From an uncultured Bacteroidota bacterium (GTDB lineage Bacteria > Bacteroidota > Bacteroidia > B-17B0 > Aurantibacillaceae), in NCBI GenBank assembly GCA_937873155.1, contig CALMVZ010000011.1, positions 310,001 to 374,000 of the forward strand: a DNA stretch of 64,000 nucleotides. The letters run 5' to 3'. The notes under the pieces are model-generated. The model saw nothing but the letters and a program-made list of their open reading frames with translations, did not search any database and was not told the DNA's origin. The position numbers were made by a program, and so were the translations under genes. Below, one piece after another: positions 46,538-49,838 of the stretch; the stretch's first letter is position 1; each line of letters opens with the position of its first letter.

Positions 46538-48004
46538 ATGTTAACCGGATTATTAATTGTTATACCTCTTGTTGCTTCGCTTCTTGTCTTTTTATTGAAG
46601 GGAAAAGCAGCGCGTTCGTTAGCTCTTGGAGCGGCGCTTGCTGAGCTTGCCTTTTCAATTGGTGTTTACTTTCACTTTATTAATCACCCCGGCGATACTC
46701 ACGCTTTGTCGTTGAATTGTTCCTGGATAAAATCAATGGGCATTCATTTTGCGGTTGGATTAGATGGGATTGGTTTATTATTAGTTCTCTTAACTACCTT
46801 CTTAGTTCCTCTTATTATTCTTTCAGCTTTCCGATATGACTACGATAAACCAAATGCATTCTACGGTTTGATCCTGTTAATGCAAATGGCTTTGATCGGC
46901 GTGTTCACGGCAAACGACGGGTTTTTATTTTATGTGTTCTGGGAGTTAGCGCTCATTCCCATTTATTTCATTTGTTTATTGTGGGGTGGTGAGAACCGAG
47001 CAAAGATCACTTTCAAGTTTTTCGTTTATACTTTATTCGGATCACTATTCATGCTGATCGGTTTAATTTATTTATACAACCACACCGGATTTGGCAGTGG
47101 CATCAAATCGTGGGCGATCAATGATCTTTATACAGCGGGAAGAAGTTTAACGGTTGATCAGCAAAGCGCGGTGTTCTGGATGATCTTCTTAGCATTCGCA
47201 ATTAAAATGCCCGTTTTCCCTTTACACACATGGCAGCCGGATACTTATGTTGTTGCGCCTACACAAGGGACAATGTTATTGTCAGGCATCATGTTAAAGA
47301 TGGGAACCTTTGGTGTGATCAAATGGTTATTGCCTGTTGTTCCTTTAGCTTTAGAGAAATGGGGCGGTACCGCAATTCTTCTTTCATCAATAGGAATTGT
47401 TTATGCTTCTTGTATCGCTATCGTACAAAAAGATTATAAACGGTTGATCGCCTACTCTTCTATCGCGCACGTTGGATTAATTTCTGCGGGTATTTTATCA
47501 GCGAACCAACAAGGTGTACAGGGCGCAGTAATTCAAATGTTAAGTCATGGCGTGAATGTTGTTGGTTTATTTTTGATCGCTGATATTTTATTCCGTCATA
47601 CCGGAACACGTAATATCGATAGCTTGGGCGGCATCAGAAACATGAACGGACAATTTTCTGTTCTGTTTTTAATAATTTTATTAGGATCTGTTGCTCTTCC
47701 TTTAACCAATGGTTTCATTGGTGAATTCTTGTTAATTAATGGCGTTTACCAATACAGCGCGGGCATTGCGGCGTTTGGCGGATTAAGCGTGATCCTCGGT
47801 GCGGTTTATATGTTGCGCTCTTATCAAAAAATTATGTTAGGCGAAAAACCAAATAACGCAATGGAGTTTGGTTCATTAGCATCAAGCGATAAAATTGTTT
47901 TAATTACTATTTGCGTTGTGATCATAGCTTTCGGTGTTTATCCAAAACCATTAAATGATCTAGCTGAACCTGCTGTAAAAGCATTATTAAGTAATTTGAA
48001 GTGA
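46538..48004 (+). CDS. nuoM: NADH-quinone oxidoreductase subunit M (antiporter-like)
   Basis: A 488-residue proton-pumping membrane subunit. Motifs: GLDGIGLLLVLLTTFLVPLIIL, FYVFWELALIPIYFICLLWGGENR, MPVFPLHTWQPDTYVVAPTQGTMLLSGIMLKMGTFGV, YSSIAHVGLISAGI, QMLSHGVNVVGLFLIADILFRHTGTRNI. It ends at 48004, three bases before the left inverted repeat of the four-helix element. Confidence 0.97.
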   Translation: MLTGLLIVIPLVASLLVFLLKGKAARSLALGAALAELAFSIGVYFHFINHPGDTHALSLNCSWIKSMGIHFAVGLDGIGLLLVLLTTFLVPLIILSAFRYDYDKPNAFYGLILLMQMALIGVFTANDGFLFYVFWELALIPIYFICLLWGGENRAKITFKFFVYTLFGSLFMLIGLIYLYNHTGFGSGIKSWAINDLYTAGRSLTVDQQSAVFWMIFLAFAIKMPVFPLHTWQPDTYVVAPTQGTMLLSGIMLKMGTFGVIKWLLPVVPLALEKWGGTAILLSSIGIVYASCIAIVQKDYKRLIAYSSIAHVGLISAGILSANQQGVQGAVIQMLSHGVNVVGLFLIADILFRHTGTRNIDSLGGIRNMNGQFSVLFLIILLGSVALPLTNGFIGEFLLINGVYQYSAGIAAFGGLSVILGAVYMLRSYQKIMLGEKPNNAMEFGSLASSDKIVLITICVVIIAFGVYPKPLNDLAEPAVKALLSNLK

Positions 48005-48007
48005 AAT

Positions 48008-48439
48008 GATTTACAATTTAGTAAGTGACAATTTACAATTGGAAGATGAAAATTAGTGCTGATATATTGAAGAAAAGAACTTTTGACTTTGCTTTAACAA
48101 CATTAAGAACAGTGTATAAATTAAACAAATCTGCATCAAATGAGGTTATGGGAAGGCAACTAATTCGTTCTGCGACCTCTGTTGGGGCAAATTATAGGGC
48201 CGCATGTAAAGCTAAGTCAACTGCTGATTTCATTAATAAACTTAAAATAGTTGAAGAGGAGTCTGATGAATCTGTCTATTGGTTGGAATTAATAAAAGCT
48301 TATAATGAAATTGAACAGCCGAATTTTGAATTGGTTTTAAAAGAGGCTAAGGAGCTGGAAAAAATATTCGCTGCTTCTGCAATAACAGCAAAAAATAATT
48401 TCAAAAAATCGTAAATCGTAAATAAAAAAATTGTAAATC
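48008..48439. mobile_element. Putative insertion element: four-helix-bundle gene with 33-bp inverted repeats
   Basis: Left arm 48008-48040 and right arm 48407-48439 are inverted repeats with 26 of 33 matching positions. The outer 12 bp (GATTTACAATTT) are perfect, a 9-base middle matches at 4, and the inner 12 (CAATTTACAATT versus CGATTTACGATT) match at 10, with equal spacing in both arms. The element fills the nuoM-nuoN gap, leaving 3 and 4 bases at its ends; removing it would leave a gap of about 7 bases, as between the other nuo genes. I see no clear target duplication. In RNA it would fold as a stem enclosing the gene, as in 23S rRNA intervening sequences that encode the same protein family. 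Confidence 0.6.
48046..48414 (+). CDS. Four-helix bundle protein (23S rRNA intervening-sequence / S23 family)
   Basis: A 122-residue all-helical protein. FDFALTTLRTVYKL, MGRQLIRSATSVGANYRAACKAKSTADFINKLKIVEEESDESVYWLELI is the family pattern (R-T-x-x-F-A, Q-L-x-R-S-x-T-S-x-G-A-N-Y, S-x-x-D-F-x-x-K-L, E-E-x-x-E-x-x-Y-W-L). ATG 48046 is chosen over GTG 48025, which lies in the left inverted repeat; the stop codon lies in the right repeat. Relatives are encoded in intervening sequences of 23S rRNA genes and as free-standing genes, and the fold is shared with the Avd accessory protein of diversity-generating retroelements. Function unknown. It has no role in complex I that I know of. Confidence 0.85.
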   Translation: MKISADILKKRTFDFALTTLRTVYKLNKSASNEVMGRQLIRSATSVGANYRAACKAKSTADFINKLKIVEEESDESVYWLELIKAYNEIEQPNFELVLKEAKELEKIFAASAITAKNNFKKS

Positions 48440-48443
48440 TTAG

Positions 48444-49838
48444 ATGAAAGGACTTTTAATTATAAGTGGATTGGGGATTTTGGCAATGCTTGCTGAGATC
48501 TTCAAATTCAAAAAAATAATTTTTCCATTAGTGCTGCTTGGCGTGTTAGGTGCTTATGTAGCTAATTTCATGGAATGGAATACACCGTTAAGTATTTCAT
48601 CATTCGACAACATGATCGCGTTCGATAAAGTGGCTTTAGCGTTCAGTGGCGTTATCCTGGCAACCATTTTCTTCTGGTTCATTATGGCCAACGACTATTT
48701 CGAGAACAATTCGAACATGATCGATCACATTACTTTAGTGTTATTTGCTGTTGTCGGCGCGTTAATGCTGACGGCTTTCAAGAACATGACGACTTTGTTT
48801 TTGGGTATTGAGATCATGAGTATTCCGCTTTATGTTTTAGCTGCAAGTAAAAAGAAAGACATTAATTCTAATGAAGCCGGGTTCAAATACCTGATCATGG
48901 GTTCTTTTGCAAGCGCCTTCTTATTGTTTGGTATCGCATTGATTTATGGCGCAACAGGAAGTTTTGACCTTATGCAGATCCGCGCATTTATTTCTGCGCA
49001 CTCTGCCGGTACAATGCCGTTGTTCTTTTATGCAGGCGTTGTCATGTTATTGATCGCTATGTTATTCAAAGTATCAGCCGCTCCCTTCCATTTCTGGGCA
49101 CCGGATGTTTATCAGGGTTCCCCCACAGTAATTACAGCATTAATGAGCACTGTTGTAAAAACCGCTGCGTTCGCTGCTATTTTACGTTTATTCCTTGTTG
49201 GCTTCGGTGGTGTTACAGAAGTGTGGACGATGATCTTAGTTTCTGTAATTGCATTATCGTTAGTAATTGCAAACTTCAGCGCAGCCGCGCAAAGCAATGT
49301 AAAACGAATGCTTGCGTATTCAAGTATCAGCCACGCAGCGTTTATGTTAATGGTTGTCCTTGCTAATTTACGCAGCAACGCAACGCTTGGCGCTTTATTA
49401 TATTATTCATTAGCCTACTCTATTGGCTCAATTGCGGCTTTCGGTGTTTTATATAACGTAACCAAAAAAGGTGATGAAAGTTTTGAAGCATTTAACGGTT
49501 TAGCAAAACGTAATCCTTTAATTGCGGCCTGTATGACGGTGGCTATGTTGTCGCTTGCAGGAATTCCAATAACAGCAGGTTTCTTCGCTAAATATTTTGT
49601 GTTGATCACAATGATCGGTACGGCTTACAAATGGTTGATCATTTTAGCCATTCTTACTTCGGCTATTGGCGTTTATTATTATTTCAAAGTGATTATTGCC
49701 ATGTATTTTAAGCCTCCTGTTGAAACAGAAGAGGTTCCTGTTGAGCTATCACAAAAAATGGTGATAATTCTTACAACAATCATAACGCTTGCATTAGGTG
49801 TTGTTCCCGGGTTTGTAGCTGAGATGTTTTCGTTTTAA
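48444..49838 (+). CDS. nuoN: NADH-quinone oxidoreductase subunit N (antiporter-like)
   Basis: A 464-residue proton-pumping subunit, last gene of the operon. Motifs: TLFLGIEIMSIPLYVLAA, SNEAGFKYLIMGSFASAFLLFGIALIYG, AAPFHFWAPDVYQGSPTVITALMSTVVKTAAF, LAYSSISHAAFMLMVVLAN, LAGIPITAGFFAKYFV. The length is at the lower end of the family. Its ATG is 4 bases after the right arm of the four-helix element. Confidence 0.97.
   Translation: MKGLLIISGLGILAMLAEIFKFKKIIFPLVLLGVLGAYVANFMEWNTPLSISSFDNMIAFDKVALAFSGVILATIFFWFIMANDYFENNSNMIDHITLVLFAVVGALMLTAFKNMTTLFLGIEIMSIPLYVLAASKKKDINSNEAGFKYLIMGSFASAFLLFGIALIYGATGSFDLMQIRAFISAHSAGTMPLFFYAGVVMLLIAMLFKVSAAPFHFWAPDVYQGSPTVITALMSTVVKTAAFAAILRLFLVGFGGVTEVWTMILVSVIALSLVIANFSAAAQSNVKRMLAYSSISHAAFMLMVVLANLRSNATLGALLYYSLAYSIGSIAAFGVLYNVTKKGDESFEAFNGLAKRNPLIAACMTVAMLSLAGIPITAGFFAKYFVLITMIGTAYKWLIILAILTSAIGVYYYFKVIIAMYFKPPVETEEVPVELSQKMVIILTTIITLALGVVPGFVAEMFSF

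Follow-up and report, generated by a model that had tools for sequence, protein, structure and literature searches.

The question raised by this locus is what a 430-base cassette, made up of a small gene and the repeats that enclose it, is doing in the spacer between the respiratory-complex genes nuoM and nuoN. Five features of the window (the whole stretch of 64,000 nucleotides analysed here) frame that question:

46538..48004, plus strand: nuoM, upstream host gene of the operon, from its open reading frame and sequence; it adjoins nuoN in 30 genomes
48008..48040, plus strand: left inverted arm, GATTTAC AATTTAG TAAGTGAC AATTTAC AATT, in degenerate 7-nt units
48046..48414, plus strand: S23p/IVP four-helix-bundle gene, from PF05635 and TIGR02436, an AF2 model and fold matches
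48407..48439, minus strand: right inverted arm, an inverse match to the left arm, overlapping the stop codon of the IVP gene
48444..49838, plus strand: nuoN, downstream host gene of the operon, from its open reading frame and sequence and from comparison of the junction

Our preferred answer, to which we give a probability of roughly 0.6, is that the cassette is a small mobile element of the type of the 23S rRNA intervening sequences (IVS), consisting of an S23p/IVP gene and two inverted 7-nt arrays and lodged in an mRNA spacer of the operon.

The gene and arms between nuoM and nuoN

The open reading frame is a clear member of the PF05635/TIGR02436 (S23p, IVP) family, scoring 60.4 bits against PF05635 (curated cut-off 33.8) and 77.6 bits against TIGR02436 (curated cut-off 24). 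Its AF2 model is a confidently predicted four-helix bundle (four helices, pLDDT 93.9) that matches the S23p structures 2RLD and 2GSC and, more weakly, Avd (4DWL); the weaker likeness extends to Avd within the DGR reverse transcriptase complex. A preliminary description of this DNA had placed both ends of the gene inside the arms. The stop codon (48412-48414) does lie in the right arm and an in-frame GTG (48025) in the left one, but the likelier start is the ATG at 48046, just outside the left arm, which gives a protein of 122 amino acids.

In inverse alignment the two arms agree at exactly 26 of 33 positions, as first described, and they leave 3 bases after the end of nuoM (48004) and 4 before the start of nuoN (48444). 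One of 2000 shuffles that preserved dinucleotide composition had a local inverse-match score as high as theirs (31), as did 4 of 7390 stretches of equal geometry in 464 kb of the source genome; the assignment of the left arm rests on the 26/33 match, the shuffles and the heptad pattern of the family as a whole. Taken alone, the arms of this copy show no 7-nt periodicity above chance (best 13/21 and 14/21), and in a scan of the window by itself for 7-nt arrays a period of 7 was no stronger than others. Compared with other copies this one is rather degenerate, and a weak case of the general arm pattern. Structure prediction for its RNA, which the description had suggested, pairs the arms as expected but gives an overall stability no greater than that of shuffles (z -0.87), so that the predicted stem is a weak one. 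The description had also proposed GATTTACAATTT termini as the mark of further copies. This sequence has five exact sites in the genome, two of them the window arms themselves, against two for the reversed control; it is of no use as a copy finder, there being no useful excess and the other five copies having other arm sequences.

Inverted heptad arms across the family

The source genome carries six IVP copies in six places with six different inverse arm sequences; most of the six arm pairs are visibly built of tandem 7-nt units, and one of 8-nt units. Of 60 related genomes, 52 have a member of the gene family, many of those compared being drafts or metagenome bins. Arms were tested by aligning each upstream flank against all downstream flanks in reverse complement. 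In a first set, 72 copies from the source genome and its relatives (Bacteroidia), a flank's own partner ranked first in 38 cases, with a median score of 29.5 against 16 for cross pairs, and the autocorrelation of the flanks peaked at 7, 14 and 21 nt, peaks that are absent from control DNA. The second set, loci from named genomes that resembled a consensus-like query (76 scored out of 80 fetched), includes, by record title, Acidobacteria, Ignavibacteriae, Nitrospirae, Anaerolineae, Gemmataceae, SAR324 and Betaproteobacteria, with many metagenome bins. Here the autocorrelation rose to 0.39 and 0.42 at lag 7, most other lags giving about 0.27-0.28, and the own partner came first in 29 of 76. The cleanest pattern is that of a third set of 14 plasmid-borne copies, mostly cyanobacterial (Nostoc, with AGTAGGG/CCCTACT, Geminocystis, Anabaena), with the own partner first in 11. 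A search of 50,697 GenBank phage records gave no match to IVP genes; 28 IMG/VR contigs classed as viral (L258-L285) have them, and the 23 that could be tested show heptad arms as a set. The heptads differ from element to element and match within the two arms of each, and the architecture of an IVP gene between inverted heptad arrays is well supported.

Gene and arms also go together. The more alike two proteins are, the more alike their arms tend to be, even across different junctions (Mantel r 0.175, with none of 500 permutations as high); thus the element at sdhA-sdhB of Mucilaginibacter and that in the fad operon of Daejeonella, whose proteins are 73% identical, have the heptads AGATTTG/AGATATG in common. 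Of nine usable pairs of related copies, eight have dN/dS values of 0.04-0.17, which indicate that the IVP protein is maintained by purifying selection; the ninth, a near-identical pair with a dS of 0.013, gives 0.54.

Operon context

Where both neighbouring genes point the same way, 133 copies are in sense and two in antisense (67:0 in the Bacteroidia set, 66:2 in the second set). Cyanobacteria follow this rule less closely, with antisense copies in Calothrix and, between ribonucleotide reductase genes, in Nostoc edaphicum. In the Bacteroidia set all 74 scored copies have a co-directional gene upstream, and 67 of 71 have one on each side. Certain sites recur, among them sdhA-sdhB, sufB-sufC, the fad operon and the iron-sulfur assembly gene before sufB, the last also in Riemerella, while cas6-cas4 is occupied by an IVP gene in two cyanobacteria; where a record was without annotation, gene names were assigned by reading the protein ends. 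The two cas6-cas4 copies are on plasmids of Pseudanabaena (L299, with no clear arms) and Anabaena (L301), and a further CRISPR-operon copy lies at cas10-cmr3 in Picosynechococcus (L302). The Riemerella record NZ_CP081938.1 (L136) is typed as a plasmid, but since lepA as well as the iron-sulfur assembly gene stands beside its IVP gene it may be a chromosomal piece.

Occupied, empty and swapped junctions

The nuoM-nuoN junction is occupied in two of the 30 genomes compared, the source genome and a congener, G002; the other 28 are empty sites of the kind that the description had proposed to look for. Those 28 spacers run from 2 to 96 nt, which does not agree with the uniform gap of about 7 bases first supposed; two further congeners, G006 and G007, have one 27-nt spacer in common. 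The gene at the junction in G002 is 28% identical to that of the window, has different arms and belongs to another clade. A separate origin of the two elements is nevertheless not certain, an AU test having failed to reject them as sisters (p 0.10).

In the comparison of G006 with G007, five junctions are occupied in one genome and empty in the other, with flanks that are mostly 95-100% identical. Four of the elements are in G007 and missing from G006, and one is in G006 and missing from G007. In each case the element replaces the whole short stop-to-start spacer (10-15 nt at four of the five sites), and none of the five occupied/empty pairs shows a target-site duplication. Within 30 nt of the edges, divergence between the two genomes amounts to 37/300, against 73/1860 at 31 element-free junctions (Fisher 5e-8; p 0.004 at the level of junctions, with five sites); this may be the trace of a conversion tract, on the base of those five sites. 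At another junction both genomes are occupied. They agree throughout the final 100 nt on the upstream side and show 97-100% identity in the gene that follows downstream, while the elements between differ widely, with proteins 66% identical and different arms. We read this as a cassette swap. At sdhA-sdhB of G020 there is an apparent decayed remnant of an element seen in G033, so that losses also seem to be part of the turnover.

The presence/absence and swap polymorphisms between close genomes, together with the recurrence of gene and arms at different junctions, support the suggestion already made for this locus that it could move as a DNA element, and on such comparisons mobility of the elements is well supported. 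No transposition event was observed in the genome comparisons, and as many copies at the same junction are related across families, much of the spread may have been vertical or by allelic recombination.

Gene-less arrays and other cargo

Strong 7-nt arrays with no gene are limited to two in 464 kb of the source genome. One (contig C11, L128:8550-8610) reads AATTCTT AATTCTT AACTCTC AATTCTT and lies in the spacer before the ATGGCACACAAAAAA start, at a junction read as rplU-rpmA; the other (L124:400-460) is CATTTTT three times over. The sdhA-sdhB spacers of G001 and G017 (L310, L311) have no gene and consist of 8-nt repeats in both orientations, that of G017 folding, as DNA, better than nearly all shuffles (z -2.3); they may represent the element in a decayed state or in one that lacks the gene. 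Among hand-picked gene-less spacers at nuoM-nuoN and sdhA-sdhB, lags of 7, 8 and 14 stood above all 300 shuffles. In three other genomes (G035, G034 and G014; L314, L321 and L326) the sdhA stop is followed by a frame whose beginning resembles that of an ATP-binding protein (KNFGPIK... GxxGxGK), which replaces sdhB and is a different cargo at this junction.

Relationship to the 23S rRNA intervening sequences

For more than 25 years the 23S IVS have been treated as oddities of rRNA, of obscure origin and with an open reading frame of no known purpose. One of the IVP copies found here, on plasmid AZO_p2 of Azospirillum lipoferum, lies inside a 23S rRNA gene (Rfam RF02541, 286-3342 of the locus) and has inverse arms of AGAGGAC GGATGAC AGAGGAC GGAGGAC, for which a long terminal stem is predicted (z -8.6). 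The published IVS of Coxiella burnetii, which is excised by RNase III in vitro, has tandem heptamers (GACAGAT) in strain-variable number, a 28-bp terminal stem and an open reading frame described as expendable (PMC4990558). The combination of the gene with heptad arms in both cases links the operon elements with the rRNA IVS, and the first reading of the window cassette as a protein-coding IVS-like element in an mRNA gains from this, as it does from a junction that is empty or differently filled in relatives.

The likeness to such 23S IVS takes in the gene family, the size of about 430 bp, the terminal inverted repeats of heptamers and an open reading frame in sense within a transcribed host gene (PMC4990558). 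Heptamer terminal inverted repeats with an S23p frame are found in the family and in the Azospirillum copy, though the heptads of the window copy are degenerate. Unlike the IVS, the window element is not inside a 23S rRNA gene but in the mRNA spacer between nuoM and nuoN, and the operon elements are present as many different copies per genome; their proteins are under purifying selection, whereas that of the Coxiella IVS is decaying.

Alternative explanations

A first alternative is that the element is kept mainly as a substrate of RNase III, with mobility secondary, the enzyme splitting the nuo mRNA between nuoM and nuoN and thereby altering its stability or the ratio of the proteins. IVS with arms of this kind are RNase III substrates in 23S rRNA (PMC4990558), the elements lie in sense in operons, the window arms are predicted to pair and the stem of the 23S copy is strong. 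Yet mismatches in the stems do not favour G-U over A-C (164 vs 182, p 0.36), which gives no sign as yet of selection for pairing in the sense RNA; the fold of the window element is no better than that of shuffles, and neither result backs the earlier idea that the hairpin could be cut out of the nuo transcript. So scattered a distribution among close relatives also gives no hint of a regulatory role that the host needs. We regard this explanation as unlikely, while taking it more seriously than the others.

A second alternative is that the repeats are independent or belong to the host, with an IVP gene that has simply come to rest among them or binds to them in order to regulate itself. The cyanobacterial STRR are heptanucleotide repeats of this general kind. 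Together with the repeats of the trnL intron P6b (PMC4476775) and the TAACTGA repeats of Beggiatoaceae (PMC4679880), they resemble the element arms in being short tandem repeats in spacers or hairpins, and in P6b complementary repeat classes are replaced as blocks (PMC4476775). The gene-less periodic spacers of 7 and 8 nt at nuoM-nuoN and sdhA-sdhB of relatives, and the gene-less arrays elsewhere in the source genome, would fit such an origin. None of these repeat families is reported to enclose an IVP gene, however, and the Beggiatoaceae repeat is one fixed sequence in direct orientation (PMC4679880), while the arms studied here are inverse around the gene, match their own partners, follow the similarity of the gene even at different junctions and differ among all six copies of one genome. 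We therefore consider this origin improbable.

Lower still we would place a retroelement-like route, in which the Avd-like protein and a reverse transcriptase acting in trans copy the RNA of the element into new junctions. Sense orientation would be expected of it, and the fold resembles that of Avd, both free and as part of the DGR reverse transcriptase complex (4DWL, 8UB7; TM-score 0.60-0.77), although at about 11% identity. There is, however, no reverse transcriptase (RVT_1) match in the source genome, nor any reverse transcriptase match in G001, G002 or G006, all of them carriers of elements, which argues against a retro route that needs a resident enzyme; in the relatives as a whole reverse transcriptase is found in only 21 of 60 genomes, against 52 of 60 for the IVP gene. 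That this is an ordinary operon gene with chance AT-rich repeats has in its favour the AT-rich, degenerate arms of the window copy and their non-significant periodicity, but is contradicted by the shuffle and real-genome tests, by the arms of the family and by the absence or replacement of the element in relatives, and is very improbable.

Classical insertion sequences and MITEs are likewise short mobile units with terminal inverted repeats. The elements described here differ from them in having no transposase, in the lack of target duplication at the five G006/G007 junction pairs, and in termini that vary from copy to copy, six copies in one genome having six arm sequences.

How the elements may spread, and implications

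In the reading that we prefer, that of a mobile IVS-type element, the IVP gene would be expressed from the transcript of the host operon, and operon spacers would, like rRNA loops, be tolerated homes, since additional or cleaved RNA would be nearly harmless there. The arms could pair in the transcript and, by analogy with the 23S IVS, may be cut by RNase III. The Avd-like protein might bind its own heptad arms and help the element to spread, with strand transfer by a host enzyme or by homologous recombination. We read the element as a selfish one of the IVS type, its protein probably acting on its own arms. A bolder proposal, which we put forward tentatively and with the odds somewhat against it, is that an Avd-like protein and inverted 7-nt arrays suffice, with host enzymes and with no transposase or reverse transcriptase of their own, for spread between operon spacers and rRNA loops. 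Such elements would then form a separate class of mobile element, of which the 23S IVS would be the rRNA-resident form and the gene-less heptad hairpins decayed or non-autonomous relatives.

The group is widespread and apparently undescribed: in the open-licence literature no account was found of IVP genes flanked by heptads outside rRNA, a search on which novelty is provisional. This work ties the 23S IVS to a gene family of 52 of 60 related genomes with a defining architecture, the inverted heptad arrays, and shows recent turnover in operon spacers, with close genome pairs supplying occupied, empty and swapped sites. Mobility, cutting by RNase III and binding of the protein to heptads thereby become directly testable, and the element type offers an explanation for the many small "four helix bundle" genes in operons and for some of the heptad repeats in spacers.
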